NCBI GenBank assembly: GCA_038501195.1
Contig: JBBPUQ010000013.1
Location: forward strand, 1 to 64,000
Length of the DNA stretch: 64,000 nt
DNA from: Nemania diffusa
Taxonomy: Eukaryota; Ascomycota; Sordariomycetes; Xylariales; Xylariaceae
Reading direction: 5' to 3'
A program made the position numbers and the translations under genes. The number at the start of each line of letters is the position of its first letter. Within the stretch, counting starts at the first letter, position 1. The notes beneath the pieces were generated by a model. The model did no database searches. It was not told the origin of the DNA and saw only the letters and a program-made list of their open reading frames with translations. Positions 4,211 to 60,730 of this stretch are shown one piece after another.

Positions 4211-5790
4211 GTGTGCCCTTTAATTATTATAACGCCCGGGTCATTAAACCTTACCTTTGAAACATTAAAATTTATAGGGTATAAACCTGTCAACTTATCC
4301 GATTTCGAAATGAATAGGGGAGTGCAGCATGTTGATAAAAGCTCAACTGTCAGTAGTATATTAGCAGTGTTTTTATACGTAGTCTCATATTTGCTGATCA
4401 TAGCTCAGGTACCTCTTTCTCATGTCAAATTTAATCTCCCGGTCAACTTTGTACCAGTTACATTACCAAGGGTAATGGTGCCGATGATATCTCTAAAAAG
4501 TAGACTTAGTAGATATATATTTTTTGGCAGACCAGAGACAACTAGTCTAAGGGAGTTGGCTAAAAGAGAGATAACAGACGTTATAGTAAGAACTGGGGAT
4601 CTCCTAAGGGAAGTAATTCCTAAAATAAGGTTTAAACTTATTTCAATAAAAAATTACTTTTTTATTGGGAGACGGAGTTTTCGTAGTATCAGCGGTTATG
4701 ACCGTCGAGAAGGAAAACAGAATCTAATCAATAAGTTTAGTTCGGCTTGTACTAGCTTAGGTTTAATATCATACAAGCGAACTAGACCTCTATTAGTAAG
4801 AACAGAAGAGTTTATGGTTAAGTGAACTCTAGGTAAAATAAGATATATTTCGAATGAAAAAATAGGATACAGCAATCCACAAATAAAATCTAATATTAAT
4901 TCTTGATTTATAACAGGTTTCACAGATGCGGAGGGAATGTTTGGTGCTAGCCTTATAAAATCATCTAATACTCGTTTAGGATGAACAATACATCTTAATT
5001 TCCAAATCGGGTTTATAAAAAAGAGCTAGAGTTTTTGAAGGAGATTCAAGCTACTTTAGGTGGAGTTGGTTCAATATCTGAGCAAGGAGATGTAGCGTAT
5101 TTCAGGGTACAATCTTTTGAACAAATTTATAATGTAATAGTCCCTTTTTTCGATAAATACCCCTTGATCACTCAAAAGCTAGCCGATTATATCTTGTTCA
5201 GAGAAATAGTTATGAAGATGATGCAAAAAGAACATCTTAATAAGAAGGGTTTTCAAGAAATTGTAAATATTAGAGCTTCACTTAATTTAGGACTATCTGA
5301 GAACTTAAAAGCTACTTACCCTAGAACTATACCAGTGTCTCGGCCGCTTGTAGAAAATAGCCAAATACCAGATCCCGAGTGAATAGCGGGGTTTACCTCT
5401 GGTGAGGGTTGTTTCTACGTTGGAGCGTGAAAAGCGCCAGATAGACGATTAGGAGTCAGAGTAGCTATAAAATTTTCGATTACTCAACATTCTCGTGATG
5501 AGCTATTAATGAGTAGTTTAGTCTATTATTTTGAATCAGGGTCTTATTCTTTAAGAAATAATCTGAATAAGGGGGAATTTGTAGTAGCAAAATTTGGTGA
5601 TATAACTGAAAAAATTATTCCATTCTTTTGCAAGTATAAGATCAGAGGTGTTAAATCCTTGGATTTTCAAGATTGATGCCGAGTGGCCGAATTAATGAAA
5701 GTTAATAGTCATTTAACTCCTGAAGGGTTAGACCAAATTCGTCGAATTAAAGATGGTATGAACAAAGGTAGGAAAGTTAATATGGAACTG
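4211..5790 (+). pseudogene. LAGLIDADG module fused to nad2 exon, one frameshift
   Basis: Directly after the nad2 exon comes an unusual ~220-residue leader with one hydrophobic stretch ([18 protein letters not shown]), then SWFITGFTDAEGMFGA, the first LAGLIDADG motif (about 4903). At about 5010 a 1-nt indel shifts the frame. The protein continues as KEIQATLGGVG...ASLNLGLSENLK, then WIAGFTSGEGCFYV (second motif, about 5381) and FCKYKIRGVKSLDFQDW...IRRIKDGMNKGRK. With the frame corrected it is a normal double-motif HEG. Downstream it continues without a stop into RT-like sequence. No group I core lies between leader and RT, so this HEG looks inserted into the RT ORF. Confidence 0.75.
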
Positions 5791-6880: not shown

Positions 6881-8615
6881 AATACTAAGCCATATATGAA
6901 AATATATGAGTGGCTGAATTAATTACTCAGATATAGTAATAAGTTATAAGATGATGGAAACTGAAATAGGTAATCGCGGATCTAAATTAGATAATGTTTT
7001 ATCTGTAAAAAGAGCAACGAGCAGATGGTAGTAGACTAATAAATAAGGAGGTAGCTACCTCCAGTATTAAAAGTTTAAGGTGTGCTCTAACGGATTTCAA
7101 AAGAAATTATCAGATCAAAATCCTTACTAACCTTACATTAATTAATCAAACATTAATTAGAACTTATTTTACTTATTCTACTTTTTCTAATAATGATAAA
7201 TTAAATCCTTTAATTATTACAGGGTTTTCAGAGGCTAAATCTTCTTCTATTAAGTGAGGAGTTCGTTATTTTAGTAACACTGCTATTTTCCAAGTAAGGA
7301 AGGTAAAACAAGTATATTGTAACAATGAAGATTGCGGTTTAAAGCATTTAGGATATAAATTTAAAAGTTCTGACTATGAGCAGGCAAGAACTGAATTTGA
7401 CAGAGATAATACTAGACCGAGTTTAACTGCAGAAACTATAACAAAAATTCTTAATGAAAAACCCAGTGATTTAGCTATTGCATTTAAAAATAATCCCGAG
7501 GCTTTAAGAGATCGGCGTGAAAAACTAATTCTTCGCAGTGAAGAATTAGCAGAACAGGAATTTAGTTATTTAACGAAAAAAAATAATTATGTATTCTATG
7601 AGGAGTTAAAAAAAGACCCGACATTATGTCAAAAAGATTTTATTGGTAAATTATTAGCTAGTTCGAAAGGTGATAAAGCATCCACTCAACGCGTGAATTC
7701 TACAGAAAACAGCCTAAAATTTTTCGAAGATCACCCACTTATTAGTAGTTTATCGCAATCTTCTTATAAAATGCTAAAAAAAAGTATTGAATCACATGAT
7801 ATTGCCTCAGAATATCTTAAAACTAGAAGACAAGATGTAGAGTCTTGAGCTTCAAAACCTAATAATAGTGCGTCAATAGATAAAGAGCTACATAATAACT
7901 CTTTAACTATTCTAAGTCCTCAATATATTCCCGGGAAGGGTAATCCCCAAGTTCAAGATGCTGCTTTGCGAGCAAAGCCTAAACTAAGCGAGGCTACTAT
8001 GCAGCCGGGAACTAAAAGATCCATATCTTCTTCTAATGAAACATCAATGCAAGCAGGAGAATCATCTAAAAGTTTCAAAAGACCTCGGACTGGAAATAGC
8101 CCTATTCTTGATGGTGTTTATAAAGGTGGAAATAAGCCATTCAAAAAAAGTGTAGAAAATAATCTAGAAACTCCAAACAGCTGCAAACCTGATGGACCTT
8201 TCAAAACGAATTTTTTGGAAAATATTGATTTTCACATACCTAGCCATATAAAAGTTCGGTGTTTAGGTATTGATTTGAAGATACCTACTATAAATGCCCC
8301 AGGTCTAGAAATAAATAGCTTGATAAGCTGTTTGATAGATCTACCTATAAATTATCATGAAATACTATATCTAAGTGTTATACTTATAATAAAAGTGATA
8401 GTTTATTTAATAAATTATGACCCAACGTGAATAATTTATTTTAGTTATTATGTTGTTGGACCTATAAAACGTTTTATAAATAAAGTAAAGAACCTTATTA
8501 GAAAGAAATAAAGTAAGAAAGAAAGTAAGAAAGAAAGAAATTAATTAATTAAATAATTAATGTTTGTATGTTAAATTTGAAGTCGGTCCATTTTGACGGC
8601 CTATGTCAAAATGGA
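6845..8615 (+). mobile_element. Group I intron nested inside a group II maturase ORF
   Basis: From about 6850: a P-like element CCGGGGACGCCTTAAAGC, Q TTACTCAGATATAGTAA, R-side GGTAATCGCGGATCTAAA, GAGCAACGAGCAGATGG and S-like AAGGTGTGCTCTAA. They have the same order and near-identical sequence as the cox2 intron cores at 18355-18580 and 25155-25500. A 1.3-kb ORF follows, then a hairpin TCCATTTTGACGGCCTATG/TCAAAATGGA (8587-8615). Sequence before and after belongs to one maturase, so removal of this intron would rejoin it. Exact splice sites are not resolved. Confidence 0.65.
7099..8511 (+). CDS. Unrecognised ORF in the nested group I intron, degenerate LAGLIDADG start plus novel C-terminus
   Basis: Open in code 4 from the end of the group I core to TAA at 8509-8511 (about 470 codons; TGA used as Trp at three or more sites). 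No convincing start codon was chosen, and the frame is open upstream into the core. Near the N-terminus NPLIITGFSEAKSSSIKWGV resembles a first LAGLIDADG motif in which the acidic residues are lost. The rest does not look like a HEG. It is hydrophilic and charged (EKLILRSEELAEQEFSYL), has a low-complexity basic stretch around SSKSFKRPRTGN, and ends in a hydrophobic helix pair (EILYLSVILIIKVIVYL, WIIYFSYYVVGPI) with a basic tail. I do not recognise the family. Confidence 0.6.
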
Positions 8616-9148: not shown

Positions 9149-9190
9149 CGAGAGCCGTATGCGGGGAAACTCGCACGTACGGTTCGGAGG
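9149..9190 (+). ncRNA. Group II intron domain V
   Basis: GAGAGCCGTATGCGGGGAAACTCGCACGTACGGTTCGG is a clean domain V. It defines the outer nad2 intron as group II although a complete group I core lies upstream within it. Confidence 0.85.
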
Positions 9191-9316
9191 GAGCGTTATA
9201 TATAGACCTAACAGGTAGGTTGTGCAACACGTTACACGTGTTTATATAAACCTTTGAGGGTTACATAAACGTGTTGAACTAATACCTTACACTAAGGTGT
9301 TGTAATGCGACCCAAC

Positions 9317-9586
9317 TACCTTAATATTATAAAAGAAATTTTCTTTTATAAACCTGAATATAAAATAAATTCTTTATTAAAAGATAGAAAATTATTAGGT
9401 TATATTTATAATAATAATGATACTTTAATAAAAAATTTAGATTTCAAATATAATAATATAGTTATGTCTAGCCCTATATCTATAACAATATCTAGTATAA
9501 CTTTAATAATATTATTATTTATATTTTTAAACAAAGAATGATTAAATATGGGTACTATCTTAGTACAGATTTTATTTAATAATTAA
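9317..9586 (+). CDS. nad2: NADH dehydrogenase subunit 2, last exon
   Basis: Starts YLNIIKEIFFYKPEYKINSLLKDRKLLGY and ends ...FLNKEWLNMGTILVQILFNN with TAA at 9584-9586; the Trp is TGA. The hydrophobic C-terminal helix SSITLIILLFIFL is typical of fungal Nad2. The stop abuts the nad3 ATG at 9587 with no spacer, which supports a nad2-nad3 co-transcript as in many fungi. Confidence 0.92.
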
Positions 9587-12223
9587 ATGAGTAGAATGAC
9601 TTTATTCTTTTTATTTGTATCTATAATAGCTTTAGTCTTCTTAACAGGTAATTTTCTTTTAGCCCTTAACATACCCAATCGAGAAAAAGGTTCTAATTTT
9701 GAATGTGGGTTTCATAGTTTTTTAGGTCAAAATAGAGAAGAATTTAATGTTTTATTCTTTACATATCTAATTCTTTATATTCTATTTGATGGAGAAGTTA
9801 TTCTAGTTTTACCTTATATGGCAAGTGCAAATGAAAATGGGCTTTATGGATTAATCATAGTATGTGTATTTATATTGATAATAGCTCTAGGATTCTGTTT
9901 TGAATTAGGAAAAAGTGCATTAAAAATAGATAGTAGGCAAGTTACTACCCCATTAAATGTAAAATCATCTAATGTCACAGAATTAATAAGTATTTTTTTA
10001 GTAGAGAATCTAAATGTACAATCGATATATCCTAAAGGAGTAGATGAAAAAGTAATAAATTTTCTTAAATCCGCTTCAATCCCCGAAGGGGGTGGTGCTG
10101 CAGCTTCGCAGCAGGAGCAGGAGCATAATCAAAAGAGTTTTTTTAACGGTTTTATCAGTAAAGTCTGCTTAGTTAATTTAGATTTAATATTTTCTTTTAC
10201 TGATATAAGTAAATTTTACTTTATTAATAAAGATTTTTTTGTTAAATTTTCCTCTATTATACTATATGTACTTGCTACATTATTAGGAATATCTTTATTT
10301 TTGGTTATGTTTAAGTTAAATGAAGGGGTTGATTTGTTTTTATATTTCAATTTATTTACAATTGTAGCTAGTTTAGTTATGGTTTATTTATCCTATAAAA
10401 ATATAGATCTTTTGATCAAATTATGCTTAAATAGTTTATATGTTATAACTAATATGTTATTGCTTAGTTTAATCCTAAGTATATTTATTTATATTATAAT
10501 TATTTTCTTACAGGTCCCTTTTAATATTAATACACTATCTTTTATGGATTGTTTTATTTTATCTAGGACAATATTGGGTATTCTGTTATCTTTAAAATTA
10601 ACAGTTCATACCTTAAAATTAATATATGCTAATAGAAAAAACCCCAAAAGTTTAATTAAAAATTTAATTTTATTGATCTTATCTTTATTGATAATAAGTT
10701 TTTTTTTCCAAATGTCTACATTTATAGTGAATGTTTTTAATGTTTTTATATTTAGTTTTGGTTTTTTACCCGATAAAGGGGACCAGGACCTGCCGGAATT
10801 AAATAGCTACGAAGAAAATTTAAATAATCCATCTGTGCGTGAACCAAGCATAGATAAGTCTTTAAGTGGTGAATTAAGTATTTCAGATAATTCTTTAAAT
10901 CATCATTTAAAGAAATCTTACCCTGTTATAATTAGGGGAAAGGGTACTTACTTATATACAGAAGACGGGAAGGAAATTTTTGATGCAGCTTCAGGAGCAG
11001 GAGCCGCTTGTATTGGTTATGGTAACGAGAAAGTAATCGAGGCTATGATGAAAAAATACTCGGAGGGTACTCATTATTTATCTACATCTTATTGAAAAGA
11101 TAAGGATGTTTCTAAATTGAATGATTTTCTTGTAAATAGTACAGGAAATCAATTGACAAAAGTCTATTTAACAGGGTCAGGTTCTGACGCAACAGAAGCA
11201 GCCTTAAAGTTAGCTCGTCAATATTTTTATGATCAAGACAAAGAAACTCAACGTCATATTGTTGTTACCCGTGAAAATAGTTATCACGGTAATACTATTG
11301 GTGCTTTAAGTGCGTCAAGTTTTGTTATCCGTCAACAACCCTTCTATCCTCTTCTTACGGATAATGTTGAACATATTAGTTCTTGTAATCCTTACCGTCA
11401 ACAAATAGATGGTGAATCCGACGCTGCCTTTGTTGCTAGAAAAGTCCAGGAATTTGAGGATAAAATTAATGAAATAGGTGCGGATAAAATTATGTGTTTT
11501 TTAATGGAACCTGTCAGTGGAGCTGCACTTGGGTGTGCTACACCTGTACCTGGTTATTTAAAAGCCATGAAGGAAGTTTGCCATAAACATGAAATTCTTC
11601 TTATATTTGATGAAGTTATGTGTGGTATGGGTAGAACTGGTACATTGCATGCCTGACAGGAAGAGGGTGTTGTACCTGATATACAAATAATAGGTAAAGG
11701 ACTTGGGGGTGGATATCACCCTATTTCGGCTATCTTAGCCTCTCCTAAGGTATGTGAGGCATTGAAAACTGAACAATTTATTCATGGGCTTACCTTCGAT
11801 GCCGTACCTGTAGGGGCAGTTGCTGCATGGAATGTTCACCAAATTATAGCAGAAGGTAATTTGATAAATAATGTATTGGAACTAGGTATTTATTTAGAGG
11901 ATAGCTTAAAGGCTGCGTTAGGGGACCATCCTAACGTAGGTGATATTAGAGGTAAAGGTTTGTTTATAGCTATAGAACTTGTCAAAGACAAAAATACTAA
12001 GGAGCCTTTCTATACAGATGTAAAGGTAACTCAAAGAATTGTAAACTTGGCATTGTCAGAGTTTAATATGACAATATATCAAGGAACGGGAGGAGCAGAT
12101 GGGGTAAATGGAGATCATATTATGATTCATCCTCCTTATAACATTACAGCTAAAGATGTGGATCATATAGTAGAAGTGGTCACAGCTGTAGTTAAAATAG
12201 TTTTAAAGGAGATTAACGAATAA
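9587..12223 (+). CDS. nad3: Nad3 fused to a membrane segment and a class III PLP-dependent aminotransferase (878 aa)
   Basis: One ORF in code 4. Residues 1-118 are Nad3, a complex I membrane subunit (FECGFHSFLGQNREEF, YLILYILFDGEVILVLP, ELGKSALKIDSRQ). Nad3 normally stops here, but this frame continues. Residues about 119-430 hold about five hydrophobic helices (for example NMLLLSLILSIFIYIIIIFL) and a linker DKGDQDLPELNSYEEN. Residues about 440-878 are a full-length class III aminotransferase: TGSGSDATEAALKLAR (phosphate site, from 529), NSYHGNT (Y566), LIFDEVMCGMGRTG (D675) and IIGKGLGGGYHP with the predicted Schiff-base Lys704. TGA encodes Trp at 11094 and 11654, so this part has been read in mitochondria for some time. 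The amino donor/acceptor is unknown. No start codon separates the modules, so cleavage or a bifunctional protein are both possible. Confidence 0.85.
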
Positions 12224-14223
<2,000 letters not shown>

Positions 14224-43863: not shown

Positions 43864-43896
43864 AACAATGTAAAAACGCCAATAGCACGTTGAGGT

Positions 43897-43940
43897 CGGA
43901 GAGCCGTATGATGGGAAACTATCACGTATGGTTCGGGAAA
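43897..43940 (+). ncRNA. Group II intron domain V
   Basis: GAGAGCCGTATGATGGGAAACTATCACGTATGGTTCGGG; nearly identical to domain V at 1199-1242 in nad2. Confidence 0.85.
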
Positions 43941-43982
43941 GGGGTAAAAAAAGTAAATATTTCGTTTTATTTATTTTTTTAT

Positions 43983-44750
43983 TCTAGTTCACTTTTTTTT
44001 TTATGACTTATAAAGAACCTATTTGTAGATTGACAGGATTCAGAGGATATACCTTCACTAGATGGTATAATAGAGTTAATAGATAAAATTCAAAATTCTA
44101 AGGGTTCATGAGAGGATTTTGTAAAGTTAATACATTATTTAAAACTTTTAGGTTTTCTAAAGTTATTAAAAGAACTTTTGAATTATTTGATTGGAGTTAT
44201 TTTATGATCAAATTATATAATTTTTATGCTGAGCATTCTAGGATTTCTAATGTGACTTATGACGATTATAGAACAAAGGACTCATCGTGGCTCCATTAAT
44301 TTTATGTTTGTTTATAAAAATACTGGTCTTTTTACGGAAGACGGTCTCGCTATTTATAGAGTATGTCTTATAGACACCAATGATCATTCAATGCTTATAA
44401 CGAGATTTATTTTATTAACTATATTTCGTCATTCATTTAGAATTATTTCGATAACTACTAATGAGGGAGTAATTTTTAAAGCTATTGAAACCAATCTTGA
44501 AATAGCAGGTGAACCTAATTCACGGTTTTCAGATTCACCTCTATGATTAGATAATCTAGAGCAGGCAATAATTTGAAGTGCATGACCTCAATTTTTAAGA
44601 AGAGCTGCATTACTTCATATTCCTGTAACAACTGGGTGAGGTGTTAACAGAACCCGTATAGCTAGTTTTTATTTTAATCAAAGTAATGGTAGTACTTGGG
44701 TAGTTATAAAAAGTAACTATTGATTATTAGGCCCTTATAACGCACAATAG
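43983..44750 (+). CDS. Unrecognised membrane ORF between duplicated intron 3' ends
   Basis: Open in code 4 to TAG 44748-44750 (about 255 codons; at least eight TGA Trp). N-terminal part is acidic (LFVDWQDSEDIPSLDGIIELID), followed by hydrophobic helices (NYIIFMLSILGFLMWLM; LITRFILLTIF) and a C-terminal region LEQAIIWSAWPQFLRRAALLHIPVTTGWGVNRTRIASFYF. The VCLIDTNDHSM...FILL and WPQFL blocks match the ORF at 48245-48975 (IGLIDTEDPFM...FILM; WPSFL), so they form a small family. I do not know its function. It is not a HEG or RT. Confidence 0.65.
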
Positions 44751-44784: not shown

Positions 44785-46195
44785 TCTCAGGTAGGTCTTC
44801 ACGTATGATTACCTATGGCGATGGAAGGTCCTACTCCTGTCAGTGCTTTAATACACGCTGCAACTATGGTTACTGCGGGTGTATACCTATTAATCCGTTC
44901 ATCTCCTTTAATCGAATATAGTTCTACTGTATTATTACTATGTTTATGATTAGGTGCCATTACTACTGTATTTAGTTCTCTTATAGGGTTATTCCAACAA
45001 GATATTAAGAAAGTTATAGCATATATCTACTACTATGTCACAACTTGGAATGATGGTTATAGCTATAGGTTTATCTTCTTACAATGTAGCTCTATTTCAT
45101 TTAGTTAATCATGCCTTTTATAAAGGTTTACTATTTTTAGGTGCAGGAGCGGTTATTCATGCAGTAGCTGATAATCAAGATTTCAGAAAATATGGAGGTT
45201 TAATCACATTTTTACCTTTAACATATTCTGTTATACTTATAGCTAGTCTTAGTTTAGTCGCCTTTCCTTTTATGACAGGATTTTATAGTAAAGATTTTAT
45301 ATTAGAGTCGGCTTTTGGTCAATATTATTTTAGTAGTATAGCTGTATACGTTATAGCCGTAATAGGTGCTATATTTACTACTCTTTATTCTGTAAAAGTT
45401 CTTTATTTAACTTTCTTAAGCCCGGCGTCTGGTCCTAAAATTAGTTACATTAAAGCACACGAGGGAGATCTGTTTTTAAGTTTACCTCTAGTAGTGTTAG
45501 CTTTGTTTTCTATTTTTTTTGGATATATAACTAAGGATATTTTCATAGGTTTAGGGTCTGGATTCTTTATAGATAATTCTATTTTTATTCACCCTATGCA
45601 TGAGATATTAATTGACACTGAATTTGCTGTTCCTACATTATTTAAACTTTTACCTTTATTATTTACAGTTTTATTTAGCGCGTTAGCCATTATTACCTCA
45701 GAATTTTTACCTGAATCTTTAATTAGCTTTAAATTCTCGAAATTCGGTTACTATCTTTTCGGTTTCTTTAATCAAAGATTCTTAATCGAGATGTTATACA
45801 ATAAGTATATTACTGGATTAGTGTTACATCTTGGAGGTCAAACTACAAAGGTATTAGATAAAGGAAGTATTGAGTTAATAGGACCTTGAGGTTTAGAAAA
45901 AGCTTTAATTAAATTAAGTAAAAGTATAAGTAGCCTAAGTACTAGCGTGGTTACAAGTTACGCTTTATATATTTTAATAGGATTAATCAGTTACATACTT
46001 ATGGTTTATCTAGGTACATTTACTCTTAACTCAGGTGAAGAGGGAGTCTACCTAGGAGCCTACGAATATATTATACTATTAACATTGGCTAACTTTACAT
46101 TAATTAGTTTAAGTGATAGCAAATCAGTTTCGTCAGCCAAAGATTCCAAACCTAAGGTCTATACAGGGCTCGTGCAGGAGACTATGAGGAAATAA
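44785..46195 (+). CDS. nad5: NADH dehydrogenase subunit 5, exon 4 (with +1 indel)
   Basis: [38 protein letters not shown]... then [11 protein letters not shown]. At 45020-45030 (GCATATATCTACTACTATG) an extra base breaks the frame of the conserved [19 protein letters not shown]. The rest reads cleanly to the C-terminus: [35 protein letters not shown]...[18 protein letters not shown], then an atypical tail ending VQETMRK-TAA. The C-terminal ~200 residues are repeated at 47558 and, in fragments, at 49019. Confidence 0.9.
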
Positions 46196-46199
46196 GAGC

Positions 46200-47359
46200 T
46201 TACATGCTTCGGTTCTTCCCATAATCTATCTTAAATCTAGCATTTTACCTTTAAACAGTTATACAGGATTCAGTAGCCTCCGGCTACGGGTTTGTAGTAA
46301 TAACCACTCAGTAAAATACAGTACATCTTCAATATCACCGGTTATAACATACTCTAACCCAGATAAAGATAAAAAATCTATTTATGTAGATAACAAAGGA
46401 CGTTCCGGGATATACCTTTGAGAAAACCAAATAACGGGAAAAATCTATGTAGGTTCTTCTCAGGATTTAAGAAAAAGGGTTATGGATTATTTTGATAGTA
46501 ATAATCTAAAAAATCCTAGAGGTTCTATCATATACAAAGCATTAGAGAAATACGGTCATGCTAACTTTAACTTAAAAATTTTAGAGTATTGCCCTGTCAA
46601 TGATCTAATGCTAAGGGAGCAATATTATCTTGATACTCTTAAACCTGATTATAATATTTAACATATGCAGGTAGTTCGCGTGGGTATTGTCATACTGAAG
46701 CTAGTAAAGAGCTTATGTCATTTAGTCGTAAGGAATGAAGCTTTTCTCCTGACCAATTAGCTAATTTCAGCTCTAATAGTTATCGAAATAAGAGGATTCA
46801 ACTTACTAATATAGCTACAGGAGAGGTCCTTACTTACCCTTCAATGACAAAAGCTGCGGAGTTCTTAGGTGTATCTAGACCAACAATAAAAAATTGCTTA
46901 GATAAGAATCTTTCTTATAATGGATATGATTTTAACCTAGTTAATCTTGAAGGTAAAGACTCTACAAAGTTCTTAAATAAACCGCAGGCTATTATATTAA
47001 CTAACGTCAATGACTCTAGTATTATAAAAGAGTTCCCTACTATTAAGGAAGCTGCGGAGTTTTTAGAAGTAAGTCGTTCTTCATTAAACTATGTTTTAAA
47101 TAATCCTAATCATATCGAAGGTACTCTTCCTACAATAAGCGGATATTTTGTTTCTAGAACAGAAAATAATGTAGACTATATCAAACCTAATCGTATGGTT
47201 ATTGAAGTTATTAATTTAGAAAGTAATACAACTAATATTTATCCTTCTATAACCTTAGCCGCGGAAGCTCTGGGTGTAGCTAAGGGTAGTATTTCGATGT
47301 ATTTTAAAAATAAACAAACTGTACCTTTTAAAAATAAATATACACTAAGAAAAATTTAA
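46200..47359 (+). pseudogene. GIY-YIG homing endonuclease between nad5 3'-end copies, one frameshift
   Basis: RSGIYLWENQITGKIYVGSSQDLRKRVMDYF (about 46401) and LREQYYLDTLKPDYNI, then a missing T near 46660 (AATATTTAACATATGC) shifts the frame; it resumes TYAGSSRGYCHTEASKELM. Three NUMOD1-like modules follow (MTKAAEFLGVSRPTIKNCLDKNLSY; IKEAAEFLEVSRSSLNYVL; LAAEALGVAKGSISMYFKNK) to TAA 47357-47359. No intron core or exon junction was recognised around it. Confidence 0.75.
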
Positions 47360-47415: not shown

Positions 47416-47557
47416 CGCCTAGCATACTCCTTGAGCCAGCAAGCTGGCGTAAGTGTGCGCAAGGCTATTTCTAAAGGTATCGGGTTATGTATTTAGATCC
47501 AGTAGTAGCTAGCCTTGGCAACCAGGGCTAGCGGGGATGGTGGTGGGTTAAATGGGT

Positions 47558-48204
47558 CTAAAGCATATTATAAACATGCTCATGAAGGTGATTTATTTTT
47601 AAGTTTACCTTTAGTAATATTAGCGATATTTTCAAGATTCTTTGGTTATATAACTAAAGATATTTTTATAGGTTTAGGTTCAAGTTTCTTTCATATAGAT
47701 AATAATATTTTTATCCATCCTGTGCATGAAATAATGTTAGATACTGAATTCGCAGTACCTGTTTTGTTTAAGTTATTACCTCTAATTTTCACCATTACAT
47801 TTAGTATATTAGCTTTTATTTTATCTGAATTTTTACCAGAATCTTTAATTAATTTGAAATTTTCAAGATTAGGTTACAACATTTTCGGTTTTTTTTATCA
47901 AAGGTTTTTAGTAGAAATGATTTATAATAAGTATATTACTAATTTTGTTTTAAGATTAGGGGGACAAACAACTAAAGTACTAGATAAAGGAAGTATTGAG
48001 TTATTGGGACCATGAGGTCTGGAACTAGGATTAATAAAATTAAGTAAAAACATTTCATCTTTAAGTACCGGCATAGTAACTACATATGCTTTATTTATTC
48101 TGATAGGTTTAATTACTTATATTTTAGTCTGTTACTTTACTCAGGGTAATTTTGATTTAGTGTTATTATTAGTATTAGGTTTTTTTTCTTTGTGGGCAAG
48201 GTAG
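47558..48204 (+). pseudogene. nad5: Second copy of the nad5 3' end
   Basis: [45 protein letters not shown]...[19 protein letters not shown]...[60 protein letters not shown] to TAG 48202-48204. About 215 codons, undamaged and using TGA Trp, about 80% alike by eye to 45452-46030. It lacks all upstream nad5 sequence, so it is not a gene alone unless trans- or alternatively spliced. Confidence 0.85.
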
Positions 48205-55798: not shown

Positions 55799-56881
55799 CT
55801 AGAAATCCATCGTAAATACCCAAAGACTATGTCCATCTTTTTTTATTGTACCCAAAGGTTTCTCTTCAAACCCTCTCTTTAGAAGGATACCTCGACTTCC
55901 TAAATTATTAAGACGGACCGTAGTATATATCCGTTCAGTTGCCTCATCAACAGGTTGGAAATCTATAGAGGAAGGGTTTATTTTAAGTTCGACCTCTTGC
56001 CTAGGTAGACTTGACCAATATGTAATAAAGGTATCCAGGAATTCAGTTCCATACTTCTTATCCCAATACTCTTCCTTGAGTATATAATGAATGTATGGCC
56101 AACTTAGGGATTGCCTTAGTTCTACACCTAAGTAGCCTATCATTTCTTGTTCCTTATTATCCTCTTTCAAGAAGATGCCGAGTATTATATTGAAATCTGT
56201 AGGTGAAGGTAAAGGTGAACAGATATTAGCTAGGTATTTTCGAGTAGCTTCTAAGTCGGGTATAGTATCGTTCCATCCTAAACTGCGCATAGCTTTTTCT
56301 TGTTTTTGAACAGAGTATAATGCATCTGCATCCTCGAGGGTGAGTTGTCGAAGAATTAGTCGATCCGAAGAAGTCGTCAAATTTGATTTGTTTCTTATAG
56401 AAGGTATTGTAGTTTTGACTACGATCTTGTCCCAGTATCTCCAGTGCGATTCCTTATATTCTTCAAGATAAGGTTCTGAGGTACTGTAGGGTACCCCATG
56501 AAAACACAATAGCTCTATTGAGCTTTGTCTTCCTTGGGTATCCTTAAAAAGAGAATCGACATCGACTCTAAGACGAACGGTTTTTCGAGGAATAGACCAC
56601 CATAATTGTAGGATACGGTAACAAATTATATCTTTCCATAATTCCAATTCATTTATCTCTATGTCGATATGGGTCCAATAAAGAGAAGGCCAGGAAGATT
56701 TAGCCATGTATACCCCGCCTTCAGCAATCAGTTCGAACTCATTTTGGTCTTTTCTCTTGAGGAAAAAAGCTAAATGAATTCCTTGAGTGAAGGGAGCGAT
56801 GGATGATTCGAGAATGCGTTGGAATCGATCTTGAGTATTACTTATTTCGAAATGAGGATTCCCTTGTCCACATTGGATCAA
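55799..56881 (-). CDS. GNAT-family acetyltransferase-like protein of nuclear type
   Basis: 360 residues, no TGA, ten or more Trp all TGG. The C-terminal half (from about 170) looks like a GNAT domain: TSSDRLILRQLTLEDADALYSVQ (b1-a1), EMIGYLGVEL (b4), YIHYILKEEYWDKKYGTEFLDTFITYW (motif A with KKYGTE in place of the usual Q/RxxGxG/A) and a late LNNLGSRGILLKRGFEEK. The N-terminal half (MIQCGQGNPHFEIS...) could be a second, diverged domain. With TGA as Trp or stop the reading is the same. Whether it is expressed in mitochondria is doubtful. Confidence 0.65.
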   Translation of the reverse strand: MIQCGQGNPHFEISNTQDRFQRILESSIAPFTQGIHLAFFLKRKDQNEFELIAEGGVYMAKSSWPSLYWTHIDIEINELELWKDIICYRILQLWWSIPRKTVRLRVDVDSLFKDTQGRQSSIELLCFHGVPYSTSEPYLEEYKESHWRYWDKIVVKTTIPSIRNKSNLTTSSDRLILRQLTLEDADALYSVQKQEKAMRSLGWNDTIPDLEATRKYLANICSPLPSPTDFNIILGIFLKEDNKEQEMIGYLGVELRQSLSWPYIHYILKEEYWDKKYGTEFLDTFITYWSSLPRQEVELKINPSSIDFQPVDEATERIYTTVRLNNLGSRGILLKRGFEEKPLGTIKKDGHSLWVFTMDF

Positions 56882-59599: not shown

Positions 59600-60730
59600 T
59601 GAATAAAAAAAGTTAATTAAGTGTGCCGGATATGTAATTAATTACATATAGCTCATACCACTGTATGCGGGAAACTCCTAAAGCTTAAAGTACCTAGTTG
59701 TAGTTTAAAAACTCTTAGTGGCTGAAGTAATTACTCAGGTAAAAATATTTAAGATTTGTGAAAACAAAATGGATAATCCGCAGGAAACCTAAGTAATAAA
59801 TCATATTATAAGTGGGATCCTCAGAGACTATACGTGGTACTCCTATTTAATTAAAAATCTTTTTTGGGTTTAGTGCTTTATTTTAGCCCAGGAAGTTTAT
59901 TGTAGGATGAAGATATAGTCCGTCTTTTTCAGAAATGGAAAAGTAATGAATGACACTCTATTTTTTAAGTATAGGATTATGAGCATATCTTGCATTGAAA
60001 TTGCCATTTTCTTTTATTATTAATAAACTAGGACCGGATTTTTTTATAGTAGGAATTTTAATAGCCAGCTTTCTTTCAGTTATTATAACATATGTAATAG
60101 TTTTACTCAAAAGGGACGATATTACCTTTAATAGATTATTAATATTATTAATTACACAGATTATTTTTCACTTAGTATTTCCTATAGTATGCCCTTTATT
60201 ATTATTAATACTTAGTTATTATCCTGAATTTATTGATAATGTTATATCTTATATTTTATCAGGTATAAAGACAATACTATCTAAAATTGGCGAATTTTTA
60301 ATTAGAATTAAATTTATAAAAGTTGCTTATGCGGATGATGGTAGTCATTCTCCTAGTCCTTTTGAAGGAAGAGAATTTATTATTCTAGATGGTATAGGTA
60401 GGAGTACCCAACATAAATTACATGAGGTTAGGTCTATGGAGAAAACTATTAGACCTAGAGGTAATTTAGCTAGCTTATTAAGTGAGGATGAAAATAGATG
60501 GTTTTTACAAAAAACTTCTAGTGTTAGGGATGATAGTGGTAAGAAAATCTTTGTCGCTAAGAGAGATATGAGTGCCTCCGATCTACGAACAGCATATACT
60601 GGAGAAACCGCGGAGCCTACTGATATTTTTATTTTACATCGAGCGAACTATAGACCTTGTCATTCTTATAATACAAGTTATTTAAATAAAGCTATATATG
60701 CCTGCGGAGCGTAAGATAATTATATCTCAA
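59600..60730 (+). mobile_element. Group I intron-like unit (core plus membrane ORF) within cob intron 3
   Basis: Core at 59650-59935: GTATGCGGGAAACTCCTAAAGC; ATTACTCAGGTAAAAAT; GGATAATCCGCAGGAAACC; GATCCTCAGAGACTATACGTGG; AAGATATAGTCCGTC. An ORF follows in the position normally taken by a HEG. No flanking exon of a known gene was recognised, so it may be nested or relic. Confidence 0.6.
59950..60714 (+). CDS. Unrecognised membrane protein ORF following a group I core
   Basis: 254 residues from ATG 59950: MTLYFLSIGLWAYLALKLPF (TGA Trp). About four hydrophobic helices in the first 110 residues (FFIVGILIASFLSVIITYVIVLL; IIFHLVFPIVCPLLLLIL), then a soluble half: VAYADDGSHSPSPFEGREFIILDGIGRSTQHKL, SLLSEDENRWFLQKTSSVRDDSGKKIFVAKRDMSASDLRTAYTG and a terminal HRANYRPCHSYNTSY. 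Not a HEG. I do not recognise the family. Confidence 0.62.

Follow-up and report, generated by a model that had tools for sequence, protein, structure and literature searches.

A class III aminotransferase encoded in frame with nad3 in fungal mitochondrial DNA

Class III aminotransferase genes have been described in fungal mitochondrial DNA (mtDNA). In Annulohypoxylon stygium an aminotransferase class III-like gene with two short introns lies between atp9 and cox2 (PMC6140425), an aminotransferase of the Pestalotiopsis fici mtDNA is mentioned in a review (PMC11277600), and aminotransferases in fungal mtDNA are mentioned in further papers, two of which cite Wai et al. 2019. An earlier note on the DNA treated here, made from the letters alone, had stated that none was known from fungal mtDNA; the A. 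stygium and P. fici reports show otherwise. In-frame extension of a resident gene at its 3' end is also described, for Allomyces atp6 and for Phlebia radiata cob and nad6 (PMC4019555). The gene reported here is built in the same way, but the additions in those fungi are linked to homing endonucleases or are unknown extensions, whereas here the addition is a metabolic enzyme. Intron ORFs that use the start of their host gene borrow a start in a similar manner.

A search of the open literature, with subscription papers mostly outside its scope, found no report of the enzyme fused to nad3, nad4L or nad5. The Nemania diffusa mitogenome paper mentions neither the enzyme nor a fusion (PMC7748715), and the words "aminotransferase" and "nad3" are absent from the main text of the Dematophora necatrix paper (PMC11404375) and from that of a fungal mitogenome survey. 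As far as these searches reach, the fusion and its recurrence are new, while the presence of the enzyme in fungal mtDNA was already known. Few proteins are expected to be made from fungal mtDNA; judged by sequence, a core respiratory subunit here fronts a metabolic enzyme.

The window, that is, the whole stretch analyzed, covers positions 1-64,000 of contig C13 (207,234 bp) in an assembly of 55.6 Mb and 16 contigs. Translated with code 4, positions 9587-12223 form a single frame of 878 codons with one terminal stop, in which Nad3 is followed by a hydrophobic module, then by an acidic spacer and finally by a whole class III aminotransferase (Table 1). Pfam Oxidored_q4 (PF00507) matches residues 16-113 (E 2.5e-20; 72.9 bits against a cut-off of 23.3), and Aminotran_3 (PF00202), the family named in the earlier note, matches residues 447-867 (E 3.3e-79; 266.9 bits against 30.5) over profile positions 12-401 of 403. 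The in-frame fusion of Nad3 and a class III aminotransferase is real, and the reading of one frame that holds a complete Nad3 and the full enzyme is borne out by both translation and Pfam. Two of the three Trp codons of the frame are TGA (W503 and W690, with TGG for the third), and both lie inside the enzyme, as had been noted; in the window as a whole there are 47 frames of at least 120 residues, many of which require TGA to be read as Trp. No third Pfam family was matched in the 878-residue protein at E 0.001, hence no endonuclease domain there. Inside 9587-12223 there were no Rfam matches to group I or group II introns at the gathering threshold, which sets the frame apart from the intron ORFs; the idea that the middle segment is an intron was dropped, since Rfam gives no match there.

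Table 1. Features of the nad3-aminotransferase frame and its immediate surroundings (window positions)
Feature	Position	Strand	Basis or remark
Group II intron match upstream of the fusion	9150..9316	+	RF00029, 61.7 bits
Presumed last nad2 exon in open frame	9305..9586	+	Position; exon start not fixed
Nad3 core	9587..9940	+	Residues 1-118; PF00507 match
Nad3 C-terminal extension	9941..10201	+	Residues 119-205; 84/87 equal in Nemania diffusa
Hydrophobic module	10202..10771	+	Residues 206-395; AlphaFold2 pLDDT, hydropathy
Acidic variable spacer	10772..10891	+	Residues 396-435; low pLDDT, variability
Class III aminotransferase domain and stop codon	10892..12223	+	Residues 436-878; PF00202
TGA as Trp503	11093..11095	+	Translation, code 4
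TGA as Trp690	11654..11656	+	Translation, code 4
Lys704 codon, PLP lysine	11696..11698	+	Family alignment
atp9, apparent first exon; next gene found downstream	12868..13059	+	PF00137, E 7.4e-11

The nad3 ATG begins on the base that follows a TAA stop at 9584-9586. The open frame that ends there has no Pfam match above a family cut-off and is presumed to hold the last exon of nad2; its position agrees with this, as it follows an exon with a Proton_antipo_M match and the group II intron match. In the fungi of two papers, one of them PMC4019555, nad2 and nad3 adjoin or overlap each other, as do nad4L and nad5, and fusions such as those described below would thus occupy tightly packed gene pairs, a circumstance that may be relevant to their translation.

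The open middle of the frame is not due to chance. With the base-step composition of 9941-10906, none of 20,000 simulated stretches of 322 codons was free of TAA and TAG (expectation 1.4e-11), and the other two real frames across the same 322 codons contain 39 and 30 stops. Membrane-like sequence occupies less of it than the roughly 310 residues given in the earlier note: of the 317 residues between the Nad3 core and the enzyme, only about 190 (206-395) have this character, and hydropathy detects no hydrophobic segment in residues 119-205, where a GC-rich insert coding for Gly, Ala, Gln and Glu is found near 10085-10130. The hydrophobic module has five hydrophobic helices, the last of which is ~40 residues long and may account for one or two membrane passes. 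The spacer region is acidic, with 3 K/R against 10 D/E over residues 393-436. An AlphaFold2 model built from 44 sequences (mean pLDDT 80.5, pTM 0.56) divides into corresponding blocks, with the enzyme mostly above 90, the module (201-390) at 74-94, Nad3 at 36-65 and residues 395-431 below 50.

A close relative is a deposited N. diffusa protein, P0122 (UniRef A0A6M8NSQ2), of 892 aa, which is the same fusion under the plain name "NADH-ubiquinone oxidoreductase chain 3" and is 90% identical over 100%. Residues equal to P0122 number 115/118 in Nad3, 84/87 in the extension, 177/190 in the module and 392/443, gap-free, in the enzyme, so that neither module nor extension is less conserved than the enzyme. 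The spacer has 35/40 aligned residues equal together with 10 residues of length difference, and the extension shows a 2-residue length difference as well; a comparison of translated proteins can only show length differences in whole residues, and these are not counted as evidence. Selection is argued here from protein comparisons, and a viral_contigs scan for DNA relatives confirmed none. Three further proteins, P0123, P0124 and P0125, have the build of the window fusion, and in their spacers 11/33, 2/26 and 5/19 residues, respectively, are equal to those of the window. The D. necatrix "NADH dehydrogenase subunit 3" (P0002, 590 aa) likewise carries Nad3 and an enzyme of the same family in one frame, but lacks the membrane module. 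Among relatives with known species two are deposited gene models, and several fusion relatives derive from metagenomes. The deposition of whole fusions as plain Nad3 (P0122, P0002) could mislead Nad3 alignments.

The product of nad3 in the window is predicted to be a functional complex I subunit. Among ten Nad3 parts, 47 positions are invariant over the rows that cover them, and the window Nad3 keeps FECGFHSFLGQNR and most of the last motif; it differs at 13 positions that are invariant in eight other rows. The Nad3 parts of the window and of P0122 are unusually diverged, being 51-58% identical to other fused Nad3. The first Nad3 helix is absent from P0123, P0124, P0125 and P0002, and we would guess that these records miss an unseen first exon.

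An Oxidored_q4 search of the genome at E up to 1 found only this nad3 and a twin on contig C12. The assembly seems to carry the mitogenome twice, as C13 and as an indel-rich C12 (220,760 bp). Over three compared stretches (9,011, 10,012 and 5,954 alignment columns) the two are 99.6-99.8% identical, with 33 indel and 6 substitution events; C12 was thus dropped as a separate relative, being the same mitogenome. The C12 copy of the fusion frame has 7 indels and 1 substitution and is broken, at a density of 7 indels in 2.6 kb of fusion against 26 in the other ~22 kb. A base lost at 9910, in the conserved end of Nad3, leaves a Nad3 of 111 residues there, and two bases are inserted in a nad5 exon (41403). 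These two breaks are firm; insertions at 4519 and 4522 total three bases, and the 4519-4522 stretch and 5013 may be intronic (nad2). Many indels beside few substitutions are typical of uncorrected long reads. The breaks in C12 are unlikely to be biological, since nad5 and the conserved end of Nad3 are broken as well and indels greatly outnumber substitutions. The presence in one assembly of two mitochondrial contigs that differ by indels might raise suspicion of an assembly chimera or contamination, which is scarcely credible given that the order and joining of the segments are the same in C12 and that a protein of this build has been deposited for N. diffusa, apparently from a mitogenome obtained with Illumina reads (PMC7748715).

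The enzyme part is complete. The motifs lie where the earlier note had placed them: S531-G532-S533 (phosphate binding), Y566-H567-G568, D675-E676 and K704, to which T736 can be added. From the family we take K704 to be the PLP lysine and D675 the cofactor Asp, and assign the YHG and phosphate-binding roles likewise. Fourteen active-site and neighboring positions were compared over 190 aligned rows. Position 704 is Lys in 189 of them, the remaining row having a gap, and in all 16 rows labelled mitochondrial; in these 16 rows the fourteen positions are kept, save for Trp in place of Tyr566 in one. The catalytic set is intact, and transaminase activity is predicted. Solved class III enzymes match the window enzyme from E 4.6e-64 downwards, and the best Foldseek match of the predicted model is 5kqw_B (TM-score 0.88, scaled like the others by target length); across the 50 matches listed of 1496, the scores against transaminase structures are 0.87-0.91. 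The substrate is less readily named. The database name "adenosylmethionine-8-amino-7-oxononanoate aminotransferase" was not adopted, because the BioA profile (TIGR00508) scores 261.8 bits against a cut-off of 405. No cut-off was reached among 25 of 72 NCBIfam families, the nearest being PRK07483 (NF005685), which was just missed (466.6 bits against 485).

This conservation bears on the idea that the insertion is decaying, with Nad3 ended by some unseen device and the enzyme unexpressed. The frame breaks in C12 would fit such decay, as would the description of the P. radiata extensions as putatively non-translated (PMC4019555), but catalytic positions kept in all 16 mitochondrial-labelled rows, apart from the one Trp for Tyr566, and an enzyme that matches that of N. 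diffusa without a gap make it very unlikely.

The enzyme is carried by more than one resident gene. P0126, P0127 and P0128 consist of Nad3 and a diverged enzyme, P0018 of Nad4L (Oxidored_q2, E 6.7e-13) and the enzyme, and P0129 and P0130 of Nad5 (Proton_antipo_M and NADH5_C) and the enzyme, so that, as far as predicted proteins show, three complex I partners carry it in frame. The heads of P0007 and P0107 match the window Atp9 by BLAST (27/34 and 37/61 identical); they are called only Atp9-like because they miss the Pfam Atp9 profile at E 0.1. P0003, P0004 and P0008 have module and enzyme without Nad3, and the Apiospora proteins P0101 and P0115 are free-standing enzymes named as mitochondrial. 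P0008, listed as a hypothetical protein and presumably the product of the gene printed for A. stygium, thus shares the membrane module and enzyme family of the window protein but lacks its Nad3 part. A search with the middle segment alone found three proteins, P0198-P0200; P0113, P0199 and P0200 (longest contig 26,604 for all three) may be pieces of another fusion cut at TGA.

On balance, the mitochondrion would appear to encode a polyprotein that is read on from the nad3 ATG and from which the enzyme is probably cut free in the spacer. Ribosomes would start at this ATG, make and insert Nad3, and continue into the membrane module and then the PLP-dependent class III aminotransferase, which would rely on nad3 both for initiation and for delivery to the membrane. 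Dependence on the nad3 start is the most likely arrangement because the Met residues between the Nad3 core and the enzyme (241, 265, 290, 320 and 376) all lie inside the membrane module, and the D. necatrix protein has none in the corresponding interval. The occurrence of Nad3, Nad4L and Nad5 as partners is consistent with a general reliance on a resident gene as carrier.

Separate translation of the enzyme, whether initiated at a codon other than ATG or made from a processed 3' mRNA, with the open junction as a by-product, could draw on the relatives that have module and enzyme without Nad3 (P0003, P0004, P0008); it is decidedly unlikely, since the middle stays open both in the window and in four relatives of the same build, and since neither the window nor P0002 has a Met close to where the enzyme begins.

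Within the polyprotein reading, the probable site of cleavage is the spacer, or else a point close to where the Nad3 part ends; being acidic, variable and of low model confidence, the spacer is the natural place for a cut. A fusion that is translated and never cut would instead leave the enzyme as a permanent Nad3 tail on complex I. The good conservation of module and extension relative to N. diffusa and the core motifs kept in the Nad3 part are in keeping with such a tail, as is the matrix-facing topology of the Nad3 C-terminus, but it accounts poorly for a variable spacer of low confidence, and the free-standing Apiospora proteins P0101 and P0115 imply that the enzyme needs no Nad3; we regard it as unlikely.

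For the polyprotein, the side of the membrane on which the enzyme is released depends on the module. The C-terminus of Nad3 faces the matrix, where the directly attached enzyme of D. necatrix would also lie; in the window, five passes of the module would place it in the intermembrane space and six in the matrix. The free-standing Apiospora proteins named as mitochondrial favor the matrix, and the released product would most likely be a matrix amine or amino-acid transaminase, either membrane-anchored or soluble. Counting against the polyprotein are the C12 frame breaks, the diverged Nad3 of the window and its low AlphaFold confidence, the Nad3 records without a first helix, a five-pass topology, which would put the enzyme outside the matrix, and the P. 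radiata cob and nad6 extensions that were called putatively non-translated (PMC4019555). Because the enzyme recurs behind nad3, nad4L and nad5, one can test how a gene new to mtDNA comes to be translated, through the start of a resident gene, and whether such tails are tolerated by complex I or put to use by it.

A phylogeny of the enzyme, which the earlier note had proposed, places it in a fungal clade of 91 rows (100/100). For this, 200 proteins and the fungus's own nuclear paralogue were reduced to 190 rows, 11 with a short enzyme match or none being dropped, and the careful tree used 114 of the 190, with near-copies and far rows left out. P0010 (Juglanconis) is one of the mitochondrial rows by our own assumption. 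The 16 mitochondrial labels otherwise comprise 12 rows fused to Nad3, Nad4L or Nad5, P0101 and P0115 by record, and P0008 from the A. stygium paper. All 16 lie in the 91-row clade, as do 15 rows on contigs longer than 300 kb, which were taken as nuclear; 66 of the 114 tree rows are unlabelled. The minimum number of compartment changes is 3 (3-3 over bootstrap trees) and that of fusion-partner changes 10, Atp9-like heads included, on a tree whose branching within the 91 rows is poorly resolved and whose bootstrap is not fully settled. The window and N. diffusa proteins group together (100/99), within a 13-row clade (100/99) that also holds those of A. stygium and D. necatrix.

By its placement, the enzyme is a member of a fungal family that is nuclear in some fungi and encoded in mtDNA in others. 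A first move from nucleus to mitochondrion is favored because the labelled rows that surround the 91-row clade are nuclear. The suggestion of a captured nuclear or bacterial gene stands in so far as the family has nuclear members; a recent bacterial origin was set aside, since the organism-named proteins among the best 120 of 8000 and the best 120 of 151 matches are, as we class them, ascomycete. The surviving nuclear paralogue (C2:3048021-3049503) was rejected as the source, since it falls outside the 91-row clade, in a group with sequences of Sporothrix and Colletotrichum. A move back into the nucleus, with an import signal gained, was not supported either: in 27 rows of the nuclear clade that contains Leotiomycetes, N-termini of 32-69 residues hold 0-4 Arg and 1-6 acidic residues.

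Heads and tails of the fusions do not share one pattern of divergence. P0126, P0127 and P0128 have Nad3 parts that are 97-99% identical and enzymes that are 45-48% identical, which may point to an enzyme swapped behind a constant Nad3. The window shows the reverse, with an enzyme 74-77% identical to those of P0123, P0124 and P0002 and a Nad3 only 51-57% identical to theirs. The mismatch reflects either exchange of cassettes behind nad3 or very uneven or fast evolution. In the careful tree P0126, P0127 and P0128 are not joined, and all three are on long branches; an AU test on 66 of the 190 rows did not reject a single clade for their enzymes (p 0.41). Three independent acquisitions are thus not demonstrated, and cassette exchange is a lead rather than a result. 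That the 3' ends of complex I genes serve as landing or exchange sites for a functional aminotransferase cassette, with the enzyme swapped behind a constant Nad3 head, is a tentative proposal that we would not presently expect to hold; if true, an essential respiratory gene would be a reusable expression platform for a metabolic enzyme.

Other features of the window may be of interest. Many of its translations resemble LAGLIDADG or GIY-YIG endonucleases by eye, as in large fungal mitogenomes, and the two endonuclease-like frames that were put to Pfam both fell just below the cut-off. Two versions of the 3' part of Nad5, at 45035-46195 and 47515-48204, each match NADH5_C; the pair has the appearance of a 3' end duplicated by a mobile element, and the frames between them (46113-46661 and 46715-47359) resemble parts of GIY-YIG endonucleases by eye. 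Further frames at 7693-8511, 43890-44750 and 59950-60714 contain stretches that look membrane-like; the first of these has no Pfam match at E 0.001. On the minus strand, positions 55799-56881 hold a frame of 360 aa with a GNAT acetyltransferase domain (PF13302, E 4.7e-18) and no TGA codon, and N-acetyltransferases have been reported from other Xylariales mtDNAs (PMC6140425, PMC11404375).
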